Source: an uncultured Lentisphaerota bacterium
GTDB lineage: Bacteria > Verrucomicrobiota > Kiritimatiellia > RFP12 > UBA1067
Length of the DNA stretch: 42,464 nt
NCBI GenBank assembly: GCA_900320225.1
Contig: ONRL01000060.1
Span: forward strand, 1-42,464
Direction of reading: 5' to 3'
Translations under genes and position numbers: made by a program
Part shown: piece after piece, positions 35,742 to 42,464 of the stretch
How the letters are laid out: every line of letters starts with the position of its first letter
Numbering within the stretch: position 1 is the stretch's first letter
Notes under the pieces: generated by a model
Seen by the model: the letters and a program-made list of their open reading frames with translations, nothing else
Databases searched by the model: none
What the model was told of the DNA's origin: nothing

Positions 35742-36365
35742 TCACCGAATAAAATCAAAAATCATACTTCGGTACGGATTACCGACTTGGTTGGCATAAT
35801 TGGTCGCTGCGTTTCCCATTCCCGCACCCGCCGCCGCCATTCCTGCAAAGACCTTAAACGCCATGCCGACCTCAAGATCAGGCATCTCGTAATACTTCAA
35901 TATGGCGGTGTTAAGAACATTCGTCTCGGGCACACCCCCAAAAATCTGCATGGCGCAGAGATTGTTGGTGCACACATCGTATGCCGAAGTAAAATTATTG
36001 TCAACGGAATATACGCTGGCAAGGAGAAGTCGCCCAGTCCAAAATTGCCATGAGTTCGTCATAGTATCTGTCCAGTTAACAACATTTGATATACATTGAA
36101 GTTGCCCGTCTATTGCCTGTCCATCTGCGGAGTCCAGAAATTGCTGATAATGGATTATCGACCGAATAATCTCAGCATCTAGTTTCATCAACAAATTTGT
36201 AGATTGCACGGATCTGTTTATATTGCTTACAAATGCCGCGTCCAGAAGATTTTCAGACGACACCAAGGCAAGGCTGGCCTCATTTTCCAACTCAGACACA
36301 GTATTCCAACCATACACCGTAGTGGAGCATATTACTCCCAAGCACACCATAAGTGATTTTCTCAT
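35742..36365 (-). CDS. Small secreted protein of unknown function
   Basis: 207 residues, not recognised. Residues 1-21 look like a signal peptide (SLMVCLGVICSTTVYGW). The middle is mostly helical, low in charge and rich in Asn, Ser and Thr. The C-terminal part has a small-residue helix (FAGMAAAGAGMGNAA), possibly membrane-active. The ATG at 36365 has AGGAGG upstream and overlaps the preceding stop as TAATG, so it is translated together with the TSP3/caspase-like protein. The DNA is AT-rich like the 3' end of that neighbour, which suggests both arrived together and may work together; this is inference. Confidence 0.7.
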   Translation of the reverse strand: MRKSLMVCLGVICSTTVYGWNTVSELENEASLALVSSENLLDAAFVSNINRSVQSTNLLMKLDAEIIRSIIHYQQFLDSADGQAIDGQLQCISNVVNWTDTMTNSWQFWTGRLLLASVYSVDNNFTSAYDVCTNNLCAMQIFGGVPETNVLNTAILKYYEMPDLEVGMAFKVFAGMAAAGAGMGNAATNYANQVGNPYRSMIFDFIR

Positions 36366-39300
36366 TACCAATCCTCCTTTGGCACTTCTACCTTTTTCTT
36401 GAAAACACCTTTAAAACTGAACTTGAAATAAACATATTTTTGCCCTTTAACAATTGCGCAAGCATTCCACGCTCGGTTATTTGCATTCGCCGACATCCAT
36501 GCGTCTACGTCACCCCTGGTGTTACGGTTGATACGCCACGAGCGCACGATGCGAGTTGGAATTCCACTAGCGTCACCAGGTGCGACATACGCATAGCCAA
36601 GTAATATTGACGGCCCAGTAGACTCCCATGAATATCCAGGAGAAAAAGAATGTTCTGCCCCGCTGTAGTTACCATTATAGTCATTGATATCAAGCACCGA
36701 ACACCCCGCTATGATAACAACGTCAAGATCCCTATCCCAACTACCATGTGCCAACAAGGGGGTAAAACCACCCTGAAGTGTGTTATTATAATGGTTGCCA
36801 TGCCCAGAGAAATAAAAGAAGTCTGCCTGATTCGTAATCTGTCTCTTCCTCGCGTCTACACCCCAATAGGTTGCCGTCACCACTTCACATCCCGCAGACC
36901 TCATGTACGACACAGACGGCACAGAATTGGGCGGTATTGAATCAAGCGTACTCGTATCATCCAGTGTCGCCTTACCTCGGAATTGACTCCCTAGTTCCGA
37001 GAACGCCTCGCTATCTGCATAATTCTGGACCGATGTTTGCACAATGTCCATCCACGCCATTTCATTCACGCCATCATCATCTTGTGCCGGTAACAGACCA
37101 AGTGCCCGCACTTGGGTAAACGACCGCGAAAGGCGAATCTCAGACTTGTTCCCCGCATTGGCGAATGATGCGCCGTCAAGCGAAATAGATGTGCCCTGCG
37201 GACATGTACCGGAAGTCCTGATTGTAATGGAATCACCAAACTTCTGCCGACAGGCCGAGAGATCCGACATCTGGGGCGTCACCGTCACCTTAATCCGCAA
37301 CTCCTCGTTATCCAGTATGACACGCGAAACATCCAGTTCGGACCAGTCTGGATCGTCTGGTGAGCAAACCGCCACATCGACCTTGTATGCCGTTAAAGTC
37401 GCTACCAGGCCCCCACCGGTAAACGTACTACCTGAAAGGTGAACGCCTAACAAGTTATCGGGGTCAAGCACGCTGACGGACTGGGACACGTTAACGGCGT
37501 TGAGCGTGTAGTCATAGTCAGGCCCCTGGGGGCGGTTCGTCGATGCGTGCGCGAGACGCACCTCGTAAGAGTACCCCGGCGTGAGCATGGCCGTGCGCGT
37601 CTCGCACGCGCCGTAATTGGCATTCACCCAGGCGAACGGACGGGGCGAATTCGTGCTGCGGTTCACGACCGGCACCACCGTCAGCTGGTACTTCTCCGAA
37701 TGGCTGGAACTGTGGTCGCCGAAATAGAACTGCACTGGTGTACGGCTGTTCGGCTTCCCCTCGTCCGTTGCGTCGGCGGGATCACTGTTCTGCGCAATCT
37801 CCACGCCATCGTTCACGCCGTCATTGTCCGTGTCGAGACTGCCGGGATTCGTCCTCCACGCACATTCATCGGCGTTCGTAAGACCGTCACCATCAGAATC
37901 GATGTCCGCGTCGTCGTCGGTGCGTTCGGTCTGGCTGTTGTGCGTGGTCGGGTCGAAGCCGTACCGGGATTCCCATCCGTCGTCCATCCCGTCGCCATCC
38001 GAATCCGGCTGGAAAGGGTCTGTCCCCAAGGCCGCCTCCTGCGCGTTCGTGAGGCCGTCAAGGTCGGGATCGGCGGATGCATCCGTGCGCGGGTCGCCCG
38101 TGTTGGCGGAGAGAGGATCCATGCCGTGCGCGGCCTCCCAGCCGTCGGGCAGCCCGTCGCCATCCGTGTCGGCGCAGAGCGGATTGGTGCCCGTCCCGAA
38201 ACGGTAGGAGATCGTCATGCCGCTCGTCACGCTCCCCGACACATCTTCCGCCACCAGCAGGTCGGGCGTTCCGCCGAAACCATGAGCGCCGATGATCGCC
38301 GATGTGCCGTCGAAGCAACTGTCGAGGTAAAGATAGCGCACATGCACCGTATCGGGTTCCGCCTCCGACACGGCCAATTGAAAGGACATCTGGTCGAAGG
38401 TGAGGTTCGCCCACCCCATCGGGTCCATCATGTCGCGCCACTCGGCAACGAACCACCGTCCCTGCACATCTGAGACAACGCCCGCGCGCAGCTGGGAACC
38501 CGCATACCCCATTGGCATGAACATATATCCGTACGCGGAAACGGCGGCATTGGCGGTGTTGTAGATGGGTGACGGCGAATAAGGGGAGGCATACGCCGGA
38601 GCGGCCGACGTGGCAGTCCCCAACTCCAGAAATTCCGCAATGCCGGCAAAGTGCACAGCGACATTGGTGGAAAGGTGGCCGGCCAGTTCGACGGCGAATG
38701 GCAAGTTTACAACCACGTATGCTGGACAGTAGGCGTACGGCTGCGTACCAGCGAGGACGTTGGAAACGGACGAAAGGTCAAAGACAGGAAACGTCGCCCC
38801 GTACTGGACAATGGACGCCTCCTGTCCGTCGTCATATCCATCCCCGTCCGTGTCCACCCGTCGGGGATTCGTGCCGAGCGCGCGCTCCTCCGCGTTCGAG
38901 AGGCCGTCACCGTCGTCGTCATCGCCGTCCCCCCCCAACCCGTCAAAGGCCCGCATCGTGAAAAATGCAATCGGCGGAAGTGTTTCATCCGGCATCCGTT
39001 CCTGTCCGATCTCAACGCAGATGTTCGTTTCGCCGGCAACCGTCTCCGCCCACCCAAGAGGAAGCACAGCCGTGTCGGCAAGGTTGGTGCGCATGTAGAA
39101 CTCGATGAAAGGCGGCGCAAGAAAAAGGTCTGATGGCCACTCGGCGGAAAGCCACACCGACGTGGGCGTGGTCGAGATGTCTGTAAAATACGGGGCGGAA
39201 GCGGCAAGAGTGCCGCTTCCCCGATGGGGAGCGGTTCGGGGAAGCGACACTCCTGTCGCTTCCTGTGCGGACGGGGAATTGCGCAGAAGCTTGGTCGCGC

Positions 39301-39487
39301 CATCGTGGCCGAAAACCAATACCAACACGACAACAACAATCTTGCCCAAAGGCGAGGCATGCCGCCATTTTCGCATGGCTTCGCGCGGCAAACCCACGAG
39401 CTGCCGCGCGCGAAGACACGCAAGCGCCGCCGCCACCAAGAGGGCGGCAGGCAGCACCAGCAACCATGTCCAGCCACCATTAATCAC
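36365..39487 (-). CDS. Membrane-anchored TSP3-repeat protein with caspase-like C-terminus
   Basis: 1040 residues from a GTG at 39487 that overlaps the restriction-methyltransferase stop (GTGA). Two N-terminal hydrophobic helices (residues 7-25 and 49-60) anchor it. Residues about 70-92 come from an in-frame palindromic insert. Calcium-binding thrombospondin type 3 repeats (DTDGDGLPDGWE type) lie at about 182-222 and 434-569. The C-terminal domain carries FFYFSGHGNHY (H896) and VVIIAGCSVLD (C929), the His/Cys dyad layout of clan CD caspase-like peptidases. DNA encoding residues after about 660 is AT-rich, unlike the rest, as if the effector domain was swapped in. A surface protease or a defence effector are both possible; activity is untested. 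Confidence 0.75.
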   Translation of the reverse strand: MINGGWTWLLVLPAALLVAAALACLRARQLVGLPREAMRKWRHASPLGKIVVVVLVLVFGHDGATKLLRNSPSAQEATGVSLPRTAPHRGSGTLAASAPYFTDISTTPTSVWLSAEWPSDLFLAPPFIEFYMRTNLADTAVLPLGWAETVAGETNICVEIGQERMPDETLPPIAFFTMRAFDGLGGDGDDDDGDGLSNAEERALGTNPRRVDTDGDGYDDGQEASIVQYGATFPVFDLSSVSNVLAGTQPYAYCPAYVVVNLPFAVELAGHLSTNVAVHFAGIAEFLELGTATSAAPAYASPYSPSPIYNTANAAVSAYGYMFMPMGYAGSQLRAGVVSDVQGRWFVAEWRDMMDPMGWANLTFDQMSFQLAVSEAEPDTVHVRYLYLDSCFDGTSAIIGAHGFGGTPDLLVAEDVSGSVTSGMTISYRFGTGTNPLCADTDGDGLPDGWEAAHGMDPLSANTGDPRTDASADPDLDGLTNAQEAALGTDPFQPDSDGDGMDDGWESRYGFDPTTHNSQTERTDDDADIDSDGDGLTNADECAWRTNPGSLDTDNDGVNDGVEIAQNSDPADATDEGKPNSRTPVQFYFGDHSSSHSEKYQLTVVPVVNRSTNSPRPFAWVNANYGACETRTAMLTPGYSYEVRLAHASTNRPQGPDYDYTLNAVNVSQSVSVLDPDNLLGVHLSGSTFTGGGLVATLTAYKVDVAVCSPDDPDWSELDVSRVILDNEELRIKVTVTPQMSDLSACRQKFGDSITIRTSGTCPQGTSISLDGASFANAGNKSEIRLSRSFTQVRALGLLPAQDDDGVNEMAWMDIVQTSVQNYADSEAFSELGSQFRGKATLDDTSTLDSIPPNSVPSVSYMRSAGCEVVTATYWGVDARKRQITNQADFFYFSGHGNHYNNTLQGGFTPLLAHGSWDRDLDVVIIAGCSVLDINDYNGNYSGAEHSFSPGYSWESTGPSILLGYAYVAPGDASGIPTRIVRSWRINRNTRGDVDAWMSANANNRAWNACAIVKGQKYVYFKFSFKGVFKKKVEVPKEDW
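39197..39263. repeat. In-frame palindromic insert, family A copy 1
   Basis: Two hairpins in tandem: GGAAGCGGCA-AGAG-TGCCGCTTCC (39197-39220) and GGAAGCGACA-CTCC-TGTCGCTTCC (39240-39263), each a perfect 10-bp stem. They differ by compensated changes, and together they form a larger inverted repeat. The element is coding (SLPRTAPHRGSGTLAAS) near the N-terminus of the TSP3 protein. Confidence 0.88.
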
Positions 39488-42267
39488 GTGAAATACTCCA
39501 CGTCGGGGTTGAGGAAGCCGAGGGAATAGATTTGCGGAAGGAGTTTCGTCCGCAGTGCGTCATGTTTCTCTCGCAGAGGCGCAGAGTCGCAGAGATTCTT
39601 CATCGCGTTGCGGACTTGATAGTAGCCCACGTCCCACGTCTCGATCTTCCAGTCCATCCACGGCGTATGGCAGATGTTCGCGTAGAACTCGCGGTAGAGC
39701 GCACGGGCAGCGGCAAGGACTGCGTGAGATTCGGGGGAGAGTCCACATAAAGCGGCGAGAGCGCCGCTTCCCCGAGGGGAGGCTTCACTTCGGGGAAGCG
39801 GCGCTCTTGCCGCTTCTCGTTCTGCCAGCCACTTCGCCAGAAACCGATCCTCGTTTGCAGCCGCGAGCTGCGCCGCGATGTCGCCGTGCCCGCACGGCCA
39901 TTGCCGCACCTCCGCCAGCAAGAACGGGAACAGGTTGTTCGCGATCTGCCACGTCCGCCCCTGGTACTCCACGTTCCGCAACGCGACGGCGTAGTTGGAG
40001 TCAGCAAACGCCGACCACACGACACAGTCCGTGACGAATTCGGCGGACAGTCCAGTTGCGGTATCAAGGGGAGGGACGCGCTCCTGCGCGTCCGCTGCGA
40101 CATCGGTCGCGCAGGAGCGCGACCCTCCCGTGGGCGCGTAAAACGCATCGCGGTCGTTCGTCCAGGTCGCCTTGGGAATCTTCTTCACGGCGTGAAGCAC
40201 CATCGCCCGCTCAAAATTCTCCGGCGTGACCGAGAACGCGCCCGCGTTTGCATAAGGCGCAGAGAGGATGAACACGCTGTTGGTGTTCTGGAAGTCGTCC
40301 CCCTTGCTCGCCACTGAGCAGATGAAGCCGGGCGCGATGTGGTTGCGCTTGTCCTTGTTGTCCGTCTTGAGGTTGAACGCGCTCACGAACGTCGGCATGA
40401 CGGACTTGCCGTCCCATTTCGGGCGCGGACACCACTTGTTGAGCATCGCCGTGCGCTCGACCGAAGGGAATTCCTTCGTGCCGATTTTCTCGGCATCCTT
40501 GTTGAACACGTCGAGGACGATTTGCTGCTCGGACAGGTGTTTCTTCTTCGCGAGGTTCCAGACGAGAAACCCGACGGGGAAGTTGCCCGTTGCGCCGTAG
40601 AAGCACTTGATCGGGAAGATGAAGCCGCGCTCGTACTGGTACTGGAAGAACCCGTCGCGTATCTTCTGGTCGTTGTTGGAGTTGACGTACTTGAGTTTTG
40701 AGAACATTCCAAGATACGCCTGCCGGTCCTTGAACTCCTTTGAAATGCGGAAAAGAAATTGCGTGAAGAGTTCGCGGCTCGCCTCGCCGTATCCTTCCTC
40801 GTTCATCCACTCGCGGAGCGTGGTCATCGAAACCGTGTCCTTGGACTTCTTGCCCGTCTCGCCGCTAACGGTGTTGGCTGTCGCGAACGGCGGATTGATG
40901 AGGATGACCCAAATGATTTCGGGATTCGCAAGATCGGCGACAAGGTTGGGCGGCATCTTGAGCGTCTGGCCGAAGGTCATCTGTCCGGCGAGCGCGGGGA
41001 TGTCGTCCGCGAGGTAGTCGTACTGGAAGCATGTCGCGTCGGGGAAGATTTTCTGGCAGTACTTCGCGTCCTCGGCCTCGAGGGTGGAGAGGTAACAGTA
41101 TTTGAGGGCGGAGGACGGCAGCTCGAATTCGAGGTTGCCGGTACCGGACGCCATGTCCCAGAGCCGGACGTTCCCGCATTTCCACCACTCGTGCCCGACG
41201 GTGCGCTCGATGTAGTCGAGGCCCTTGGCGGCGAACTCGACGGGCGTGAAGAACTCGCCCGTGAAGCGGCGGCGGAAGTCCTCGGTGAGGCGGTCGGCCT
41301 TCTGGCGGATGCGCATCATGGCGGACGGCGGAACCTTCTCGTAGTTCTGCCAGAAGTGGCGGTACTTCTCCGGCTGGAGCGTTTTGGGGATGTAGCCCTC
41401 GGCACCGCTCACGGAGAAGAGCACCTGGCCGTCCTGCGCGACGATGGACTTTCCCTGCTCGATGTCGGAGAGGAAGTACTCGGAGGATTTCCTGCCGTTG
41501 CGCACGTAGGCGCCGAAGAGGCCGTTCCAGTAGTCAAACACGTCGAGGAAGTTGTCCTCGGTGATGGCCTTCTTCTCGAGCATCTCAAGGAAGGTCATCT
41601 GGGCGATCAGCCGCTCGCGGCACTTCGCGACGAACTGCTCCTCCTCGGCCGGGTTCGTGAGATCGTAAAGGTATGGTAATCTGTTTTTAACACAGAGGCT
41701 CAGAGGCTCAGAGGATTCGTTGCTTTCGCTTCTTGGAGTCTTGGAGACTTGGAGATTTGGAGGATTTTTAGAAACTACTCCGAAACTCCGAGACTCCGAA
41801 TCTCCCCGTAGCGAAAGCAATCCTTCATTTACTGATTTCTCCGTGTCTCTGTGCCTCTGTGTTAAAAAACCAAATATATCCTCCACCAGCCTGGGGCAAG
41901 GAGTGGAGGGGGCGCGGTCCCAGTCGTAGCGGTCGCCCTTCGCGGCGTAGAACCGCGCGTAGTCCTTCGTCTCGGCGAAGAACGCCTCGTTCTTGTCCAC
42001 CACGCAGATGTACGGCGGCAGCGGGTATTTCGTGAGCCCCGCGCCGAACTTCAGCATCCGCGCGTAGTACATCGTCTGCGCCAACGCGCGCGCCACGTTC
42101 TCCGGGTTCCTGAAATTACGGTCGTACTTGAACTCGAAGAGGATGCGCTCGGTGTAGTGGTCGATGCCGCGCAAGGCGAAGATCTTCATCTTGAAGAACT
42201 TGCAGAACTCGGCCTTGACCTCCTCCTCCTTCGCGCACGCGCGCAAACTATCGTACAGGTGTTTCAT
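39484..42267 (-). CDS. Type IIG-like restriction enzyme and N6-adenine methyltransferase
   Basis: 927 residues. The N-terminus has a compact PD-(D/E)xK-like nuclease signature (D36, E45, K47 in GIDHYTERILFEFKYD). The central gamma-type methyltransferase has AdoMet motif I DMASGTGNLEFE (D371) and catalytic NPPF (N458). The C-terminal third should recognise DNA. Such single-chain enzymes cut unmethylated and protect their own sites. It has at least four repeat-derived in-frame segments: 41684-41868 (about 64 residues), 40074-40124, 39750-39816 and 39571-39594. The ATG at 42267 lies 11 nt after TAAAAT, with almost no leader. Its stop overlaps the start of the TSP3/caspase-like gene. Whether it remains active with the inserts is unknown. 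Confidence 0.8.
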   Translation of the reverse strand: MKHLYDSLRACAKEEEVKAEFCKFFKMKIFALRGIDHYTERILFEFKYDRNFRNPENVARALAQTMYYARMLKFGAGLTKYPLPPYICVVDKNEAFFAETKDYARFYAAKGDRYDWDRAPSTPCPRLVEDIFGFLTQRHRDTEKSVNEGLLSLRGDSESRSFGVVSKNPPNLQVSKTPRSESNESSEPLSLCVKNRLPYLYDLTNPAEEEQFVAKCRERLIAQMTFLEMLEKKAITEDNFLDVFDYWNGLFGAYVRNGRKSSEYFLSDIEQGKSIVAQDGQVLFSVSGAEGYIPKTLQPEKYRHFWQNYEKVPPSAMMRIRQKADRLTEDFRRRFTGEFFTPVEFAAKGLDYIERTVGHEWWKCGNVRLWDMASGTGNLEFELPSSALKYCYLSTLEAEDAKYCQKIFPDATCFQYDYLADDIPALAGQMTFGQTLKMPPNLVADLANPEIIWVILINPPFATANTVSGETGKKSKDTVSMTTLREWMNEEGYGEASRELFTQFLFRISKEFKDRQAYLGMFSKLKYVNSNNDQKIRDGFFQYQYERGFIFPIKCFYGATGNFPVGFLVWNLAKKKHLSEQQIVLDVFNKDAEKIGTKEFPSVERTAMLNKWCPRPKWDGKSVMPTFVSAFNLKTDNKDKRNHIAPGFICSVASKGDDFQNTNSVFILSAPYANAGAFSVTPENFERAMVLHAVKKIPKATWTNDRDAFYAPTGGSRSCATDVAADAQERVPPLDTATGLSAEFVTDCVVWSAFADSNYAVALRNVEYQGRTWQIANNLFPFLLAEVRQWPCGHGDIAAQLAAANEDRFLAKWLAEREAARAPLPRSEASPRGSGALAALCGLSPESHAVLAAARALYREFYANICHTPWMDWKIETWDVGYYQVRNAMKNLCDSAPLREKHDALRTKLLPQIYSLGFLNPDVEYFT
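39571..39594. repeat. Three octamers TCGCAGAG inside the methyltransferase gene
   Basis: Units TCGCAGAG, GCGCAGAG, TCGCAGAG lie in the coding sequence for LCDSAPLREKHD near the C-terminus. They are the same octamer type as the termini of the 41684-41868 element, with C for T. Confidence 0.75.
39750..39816. repeat. In-frame palindromic insert, family A copy 2
   Basis: Hairpins AAGCGGCG-AGAG-CGCCGCTT (39750-39769) and GAAGCGGC/GCCGCTTC (39795-39816) are joined by CCCCGAGGGGAGG and TTCGGGG, as in copy 1. It encodes APLPRSEASPRGSGALAAL, read in the same frame as copy 1. Confidence 0.88.
40074..40124. repeat. In-frame palindromic insert, family B (two arms)
   Basis: GGACGCGC-TCCT-GCGCGTCC (40074-40093) and GGTCGCGC-AGGA-GCGCGACC (40105-40124) are two perfect 8-bp hairpins. 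They are also inverted copies of each other, flanked by GGGAG and CTCCC. It encodes GGSRSCATDVAADAQERV. Confidence 0.88.
41684..41868. mobile_element. 185-bp palindromic octamer element inside the methyltransferase gene
   Basis: The ends TTTTTAACACAGAGGC and GCCTCTGTGTTAAAAA are perfect 16-bp terminal inverted repeats. A second nested pair, TTGCTTTCGCT (41720-41730) and AGCGAAAGCAA (41810-41820), lies inside. Between them are degenerate octamers: CAGAGGCT, CTTGGAGA, CCGAGACT and TCTCTGTG types. The whole element is open in the host frame and adds about 64 residues between VEDIF and LPYLYDLTN. It has the look of a non-autonomous miniature element; no transposase is present. Confidence 0.75.
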
Positions 42268-42273
42268 GTGGCG

Positions 42274-42284
42274 CGGTTATTTTA
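42274..42284 (-). promoter_or_regulatory. -10-like box of the methyltransferase gene
   Basis: The minus strand reads TGGTAAAAT (hexamer 42279-42284) 11 nt before the ATG at 42267, predicting a 4-5 nt leader. Confidence 0.4.
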
Positions 42285-42369
42285 CCATGTTGGGCGCGTC
42301 TCTTCCGCGTGCCAGGCCCTTTACCTAATGCGCGTCAGCACCATGTTCCTGAACGACGCGGGCGGCGGG

Positions 42370-42464
42370 CTAGCCCATGAGCAGTTCGAAGTCCTCCTCG
42401 ATCGGCGGACGTCCGTATTCGCTGATCTCGTAGGACTCCACCATTTCCGGGACGGGCCTTCCGG
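42370..42464 (-). CDS. C-terminal end of an unidentified gene (partial)
   Basis: The last 30 codons of a leftward gene are visible, ending EMVESYEISEYGRPPIEEDF then ELLMG and TAG at 42370-42372. The codon pattern is typical of the neighbouring GC-rich genes, so it is likely real. The family cannot be named from this piece. About 100 bp without features separate it from the methyltransferase gene. Confidence 0.5.
   Translation of the reverse strand, partial: GRPVPEMVESYEISEYGRPPIEEDFELLMG

Follow-up and report, generated by a model that had tools for sequence, protein, structure and literature searches.

The stretch of DNA analysed here (the window, 42,464 nt; contig ONRL01000060.1 of assembly GCA_900320225.1, from an uncultured Lentisphaerota bacterium) raises the question how copies of one palindromic element came to lie, in the same frame, in two adjacent and unrelated minus-strand ORFs. 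An earlier note, made from the letters of the window, had described this arrangement, and both copies are present where it placed them. The shared reading frame was likewise confirmed, with weaker coding support for copy 1, of which one flank alone scored as coding. REPs are named for their position outside genes. The element studied here, family A, is nevertheless quite probably a REP/REPIN-like non-autonomous mobile element that is mobilised by a RAYT and tolerated in frame in genes, and ordinary enzymes appear to carry extra loops encoded by the repeat.

Anatomy of the repeat and its two copies in the window

The repeat unit was delimited in an alignment of 104 arms (found at ≤3 mismatches) from loci of the window's own genome. 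It is a palindrome of 27 nt (G-AAGCGGCR-NGAG-YGCCGCTT-CCCCGA; in this order a G, an 8-base left stem, a loop, the right stem and a tail) with sharp edges: in the 104 arms the neighbouring bases on either side are unconserved, and on the side opposite the tail no base is conserved beyond position -1. Each arm forms a 9-bp palindrome with the loop NGAG, and the CCCCGA tail (5'-TCGGGG on the opposite strand) is unpaired. Units occur as singlets or as inverted pairs with the tails pointing inward. The consensus unit contains no stop codon in any of the six frames, and all six frames are without a stop in 94 of the 104 aligned units.

Both elements of the window are inverted pairs of this one unit. 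Copy 1 (39197-39263) consists of arms at 39198-39224 (plus strand, stem AAGCGGCA/TGCCGCTT) and 39236-39262 (minus strand, the compensatory variant AAGCGACA/TGTCGCTT), with boundaries taken from the 104 arms; copy 2 (39749-39816) consists of arms at 39749-39775 (plus strand) and 39790-39816 (minus strand). The plan originally proposed for them, hairpin, linker, hairpin, was right about the palindromic arms but not about two independent hairpins. Each whole element folds into one long hairpin, with z scores on the two strands of -6.5 and -7.7 for copy 1 and -10.0 and -8.2 for copy 2, and none of 200 shuffled sequences was as stable. The paired compensatory changes that had been seen in the stems are real: among 32 distinct arm cores of the own genome, recurrent changes of both partners affect two of the nine stem pairs (G-C in 20 and A-T in 7 cores at one, A-T in 22 and G-C in 8 at the other), and a third pair shows a both-sided change in one core.

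Family A resembles the REP/REPIN and RAYT systems of Pseudomonas, E. coli and Stenotrophomonas in its short palindromic unit (within the 20-40 nt of REPs and REPINs), its high copy number, the unpaired conserved tag at one end, the occurrence of singlets and of inverted doublets that make a larger hairpin, and the presence of the unit beside a RAYT gene (see below). It differs from them in its frequent occurrence in genes in the window's genus and in its tag: neither GTAG nor CGTC, the tags of the described REP superfamilies, is present in the unit, the conserved tail of which is CCCCGA.

The host of copy 1 is an ORF of 1040 aa (36365-39487, minus strand) with bacterial TSP3 repeats (Pfam PF18884, E 1.4e-32), in which the element follows an N-terminal stretch that is hydrophobic by eye. 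Copy 2, a net insertion of 24 aa relative to empty homologues, lies in an ORF of 927 aa (39484-42267, minus strand), which we take to be methylase-like solely from its NPPF motif. The latter ORF had no match in Pfam or NCBIfam at the thresholds used, nor in the PDB when used as the query. As listed, the two ORFs overlap by four bases (39484-39487), which would fit one transcript. The methylase-like ORF also contains, in frame, a palindromic doublet of another family, B (GGGAGGGWCGCGCTCCTGCGCGWCC, 40069-40129), at a site that is empty or otherwise filled in homologues, a CTCTCGCAGAGGCGCAGAGTCGCAGAG stretch (39567-39597) at a third variable site, and a CAGAG-type inverted repeat with arms of 35 nt (41684-41868). 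A search of positions 38000-42464 against Rfam gave four matches at E ≤ 1, none of which reached the gathering score; the best of them (E 0.04), to a microRNA family, was taken as chance.

Copy number, range and reading frame

The earlier note had made its interpretation depend on further copies in the genome, and many were found. With ≤1 mismatch allowed, the 26-mer core is found 98 times in the 5.2 Mb of the own genome and its reversed control 0 times, therefore the repeat is not a product of chance. The core is present in 22 of the 143 genomes searched, the window's own included: family A was detected in 12 of 15 genomes of the same genus, 8 of 70 that belong to the family but to another genus, 1 of 47 elsewhere in the order and 0 of 10 elsewhere in the class. 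When GTDB contigs were scanned, at least 80 loci were obtained, and the titles among the matches listed named only Kiritimatiellae, Lentisphaerae, Verrucomicrobia or uncultured bacterium; NCBI places the Kiritimatiellia bacterium in Kiritimatiellota, PVC group. Of 10 relatives searched, 8 have exact inverted pairs, 54 in all (control 0). G023, a genome of another genus, exceeds all others that were searched in copy number (262 matches) and has no exact converging pair. Family A looks like a mobile, self-complementary repeat which has repeatedly colonised the genomes of uncultured bacteria of the gut.

Occurrence in coding sequence was scored with a home-made 3-periodic Markov classifier (210-nt flanks, score >6), which was trained for each set on the same loci; clusters less than 100 nt from the end of a locus were dropped. 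Of random positions in these loci, it placed 151 of 305, 140 of 240, 102 of 215 and 73 of 180 in frame in the four sets, and it scored 3/305, 4/240, 3/215 and 1/180 as differing in frame, so the classifier errs in this way at about 1%. In the own genome, 20 of 67 clusters were in frame in coding sequence, 17 had one coding flank, 30 had neither and 0 differed in frame; with a looser arm definition the corresponding numbers were 23, 17, 30 and 0 of 70. Same-genus loci with converging pairs gave 28 of 49 in frame, 15 with one coding flank and 6 with neither, a share that is not a genome-wide rate because the loci had been chosen for converging pairs. Further loci from genomes other than G023 gave 15 of 52 in frame, 10 with one flank, 26 with neither and 1 differing in frame. 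None of 50 clusters of G023, from among the matches listed, was in coding sequence, and all had neither flank coding.

Own-genome clusters are rarer in coding sequence than random positions (20/67 vs 151/305, p 0.004). Family A is depleted in genes of the window's genome yet far from absent from them, whereas genes are avoided in G023 (p 5e-10; 50 clusters, from among the matches listed); the in-gene shares of the two genomes differ with p 6e-6. Thus one family is never found in coding sequence in one genus (0 of the 50 clusters scored) and often in another, and the predominantly extragenic position of REPs and REPINs is not kept in the own genome.

When the overlap between the two sets of relatives was removed (218 clusters, 63 of them in frame, before removal), the pooled data comprised 205 distinct clusters, 55 in frame, 38 with one coding flank, 111 with neither and 1 differing in frame. 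By flank similarity, the in-frame clusters form 43 groups, which represent independent insertions. As is typical of Rickettsia palindromic elements (RPEs), family A is inserted in frame in unrelated ORFs, and the frequent stops that would have spoken against the initial interpretation were not seen: coding copies are in frame and free of stops. One locus, L220, was considered as a true frameshifting copy and rejected, as its translation shows the repeat at the end of one gene and the next gene in another frame. The ORF after this 3'-end repeat (L220:5150-5640) presumably starts like a reverse transcriptase, as judged by eye.

Thirteen of 26 independent converging clusters of at least two arms use the frame seen in the window (EAA..PLPR..RGSGxLAAS). 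Copy 1 (39197-39263), which has the same frame, stands outside the 26 because one flank alone scored as coding. The phase of the 3' arm is distributed 18:6:2 (p 3e-4) and that of the 5' arm 14:8:4 (p 0.05) in these clusters; clusters with tied arm frames are distributed 13:4:1 (p 0.0015), or 12:4:1 (exact p 0.005) without the window's own group. The 14 independent singlets are spread over all six frames (3:3:3:2:2:1), and one obligatory frame is ruled out. Frame use is a bias, not a rule: of the single-frame preference suspected at the outset, what stands is that paired clusters favour the window's frame, and what falls is the fixed frame.

These data bear on the idea that the element is skipped at the translational or RNA level, the hairpin being bypassed by the ribosome or excised so that its residues never enter the protein. 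The elements do form very stable RNA hairpins inside ORFs, which agrees with such skipping. However, a skipped element would not need to keep the frame, and 55 of the 56 distinct clusters that lie between two coding flanks do so, the other being a gene end; a bias in the frame of the pairs (13:4:1) would also be unexpected of an untranslated element. We therefore give skipping very little credence.

Other palindromic families were scored in the own-genome loci. Family B was in frame in 18 of 34 scorable clusters (7 with one coding flank, 9 with neither, 0 differing in frame), and families C (1/13), N (3/12), E (0/3) and D (0/4) were in frame less often; these numbers are not genome-wide because the loci were chosen for family A.

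Empty and differently filled sites

The comparison with homologues lacking the insert, which the earlier note had suggested, gave such homologues for copy 2 but no clean empty site for copy 1. The segments around copy 1 (the upstream N-terminal segment and the downstream region) resemble proteins of relatives; these carry unrelated linkers of similar length, and an empty site is unsupported. For the methylase-like ORF seven sequences were compared. Its family A site has 43 residues between anchors in the own genome and G013, 19 in G011, G002 and the own paralogue on C140, and 47 and 49 in G012 and the own paralogue on C77, which share a different sequence. The two other sites of this ORF vary likewise, including that of family B at 40069-40129. 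Two more copies of the methylase-like gene are present in the own genome (L215, L217; C77, C140), with different or no inserts at the same three sites.

In RimO (11 of 13 sequences matched the anchor pattern and were measured), the linker between the UPF0004 and radical-SAM domains has 47, 48, 60 and 33 residues in the own genome, G013, G011 and G009, respectively, 15 in G005 and G002, and 20-25 of other sequence in five others. Between the aligned stretches, PDB 4jc0 has 18 residues vs 53 in the RimO query, and the A arms enclose a family-B-like stretch. In HydF (8 of 16 sequences matched the anchor pattern and were measured), 27 residues are found in the own genome, G009 and G013, 15 in G015, G012 and G010, 16 in G001 and 24, of unrelated sequence, in G005; PDB 3qq5 has 11 residues fewer at the insert. 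The linker of the Kdo transferase WaaA (L407-L418) carries one in-frame unit in the own genome, two in G011, three in G013 and none in G002 and G005, with one unit-like peptide in G006, G009 and G015. At the position of the A and B repeats of LacZ, PDB 6s6z is shorter by 16 residues; PDB alignments of GDPD, MurC-like and MetH gave no clean insertion gap and are left out of the evidence. As judged from these sequence comparisons, family A was inserted into the methylase-like protein, RimO, HydF and WaaA, and the palindromic family that occupies one and the same linker differs between genomes.

Since the consensus unit is stop-free in six frames and the observed insertions leave the frame intact, a gene that receives one would gain about 9-35 translated residues, and more from a tandem cluster. 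Copies would survive where this extra sequence lands in a loop or an interdomain linker. Frames that encode small, flexible residues (EAA..PLPR..RGSGxLAAS) would be favoured, most simply by selection against harmful insertions, and the in-frame state itself would be an outcome of purifying selection.

The intragenic copies might instead owe their presence to recruitment, either as functional linkers in proteins or as hairpins with a regulatory role. Variation in family or copy number between genomes, at the three sites of the methylase-like ORF and in the RimO and WaaA linkers, agrees with recruitment, as does the frame bias toward flexible residues. But the methylase-like ORF, RimO, HydF and WaaA all have repeat-free orthologues, the hosts are functionally unrelated, and tolerance of loops accounts for the same pattern, which makes recruitment quite unlikely in our view. 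It is also conceivable that each linker received one old insertion, later overwritten by other palindromes through recombination. The family-B-like stretch between the A arms of RimO and the varying arm numbers fit such replacement, whereas the families have no obvious sequence in common through which they could recombine, and the genus also has empty sites. We hold replacement to be possible though rather doubtful; it concerns the history of the element and not its nature, and its odds overlap those of a REP/REPIN-like element mobilised by a RAYT and tolerated in genes.

A tentative extension of the latter explanation, which may well not hold but deserves consideration, is that several RAYT/REP families have gone intragenic here and together act as a linker-diversifying system that rewrites interdomain linkers genome by genome. 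If this were true, unrelated families would enter the same linkers of housekeeping proteins repeatedly, independently and in frame, with flexible-residue frames favoured. The filled and empty orthologues in hand provide a natural comparative experiment on the passage of mobile DNA into protein sequence, and their comparison bears on insertion-tolerant protein positions and on the target choice of RAYTs.

Known systems and a candidate mobiliser

PMC3733652 and PMC3116915, both discussed below, are presumably the papers of Di Nocera and colleagues (2013) and of Bertels and Rainey (2011), respectively, and the O. terrae of the former we take to belong to the genus Opitutus. Excerpts of PMC3733652 describe REPs and REP dimers within ORFs of several species, most of them in Opitutus terrae and Rickettsia conorii. 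According to the same excerpts, intragenic dimers or groups encode 20-30 aa, flexible linkers are suggested as tolerant sites, the intragenic CGTC REPs of R. conorii are RPE-4 and RPE-6, and different REPs lie at about the same recB site in two Xanthomonas species. Family A is like the intragenic REPs of these excerpts in forming dimers in unrelated ORFs, a PVC member being included among the hosts, and unlike them in its repeat families and tags and in that site reuse here concerns several linkers across one genus. In SBW25, by an excerpt of PMC3116915 that also defines the REPIN, the commonest 16-mers have 1,067 occurrences, just 14 of which overlap genes.

Family A is not a new kind of element, since intragenic REPs are known (PMC3733652, in the excerpts used). 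The family, the lineage, the CCCCGA tag, the candidate RAYT and the recurrent colonisation of the same linkers appear to be new. The initial claim of novelty in the lineage can be kept insofar as no report of such repeats in Kiritimatiellota was found in searches of an open-access library, but has to be narrowed, as in-frame intragenic REPs were already described, PVC Opitutus terrae included (excerpts of PMC3733652). The parallel that had been drawn with RPEs is apt as regards in-frame copies in unrelated genes, but the element is better read as a REP doublet (REPIN-like). RPEs, likened here by description, are about 150 bp long in the excerpt of a MITE review (PMC10969869), vs 27-nt units or ~68-nt pairs of family A; that excerpt gives no RAYT link for them, whereas family A shows RAYT association in relatives.

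The REP doublet is probably tied to a RAYT transposase. One RAYT subtype has A arms (0-1 mismatch) on both sides of its gene in three same-genus genomes, G010, G012 and G015 (3 of 30 RAYT loci), and its proteins are 98-100% identical; one, of 208 aa, is encoded at L121:1195-1821. The flanked RAYT can be aligned with E. coli TnpA-REP (PDB 4er8) over both the HUH and the Tyr region (E 4e-4); similarity is low, and the HUH motif and the catalytic Tyr are present in MPNHVHVLF and CYIKSN, which align to 4er8. The G012 copy scores 61.4 of 80 bits, under the equivalog cut-off of NCBIfam NF047646, and matches above this cut-off were found in 1 of 10 genomes and in 1 of 14 control genomes. In G063, a 51%-identical RAYT is flanked at either end by a diverged A-like repeat (3 mismatches).

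Flanks were checked at 80 RAYT loci in total, in overlapping sets. At ≤3 mismatches, A arms were absent from the other 27 of 30 NF047646 loci, from 20 further RAYT loci (G023, G013, G011) and, with the exception of G063, from 26 of 27 other loci of a 30-locus set of RAYT protein matches. By genome, the check covered every RAYT match of G023 (9) and of G013 (10) and 12 of the 14 in G011, and none of these has A arms. In all 30 loci of the protein-match set, an exact repeat of at least 13 nt, in many cases palindromic, is common to both flanks (counted without a shuffled control). The three flanked RAYT genes may descend from one ancestral locus, because their downstream flanks are alike (97% between G010 and G012, 79-80% to G015); on the opposite side, G010-G012 homology starts at the first arm. 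The possibility that the flanked RAYT lies in different genomic contexts was not borne out, one downstream flank being common to all three. The own genome gave 0 matches to the flanked RAYT at E ≤ 1e-10, and its absence from most carriers may reflect loss or gaps in fragmented assemblies. The tag that departs from GTAG and CGTC likewise counts against a REP/RAYT system, as does the fact that no target-site signature emerged.

These observations can be set against the view that family A resembles the RPEs, has no relation to REP/RAYT and spread by some other route, having merely invaded one RAYT locus. The own genome and most carriers are without an A-flanked RAYT, G023 with its highest copy number among them, and the three flanked genes may amount to one association; this view would accommodate all of it. 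It accounts less well for the A repeats that bracket the RAYT in three genomes and the diverged A-like repeats that bracket its 51%-identical relative in G063, for the lack of A arms (≤3 mismatches) at any other of the 80 loci of the overlapping sets, and for the flank repeats shared by 30 of 30 loci of the protein-match set (again without a shuffled control). We consider an origin unrelated to RAYT unlikely. If family A is mobilised by a RAYT, as we favour, this HUH tyrosine transposase would most likely cut and join the unit as single-stranded hairpin DNA, a step suggested by the copies on both sides of the RAYT gene and by the published in vitro cleavage of REPs by TnpA-REP, in which GTAG has a role (PMC8266576, excerpt).

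The own genome contains three Y1 transposase genes above the Pfam cut-off, and 13 matches to the RAYT model NF047646 on 11 contigs, all under the cut-off; the flank check in this genome covered the three Y1_Tnp genes and, among the NF047646 matches, C178. The three Y1_Tnp genes (L081, L092, L093) do not look like mobilisers of family A: within the surrounding stretches the nearest A arm is more than 1 kb from the gene, and two of them have other end repeats. The RAYT-like gene of L092 has GGCAGCGCAAGCGCTGCC at both ends, and that of L081 (L081:7920-9240) is flanked on both sides by the palindrome AAAACAGGTCNGACCTGTTTT, which is probably this gene's own REP family.
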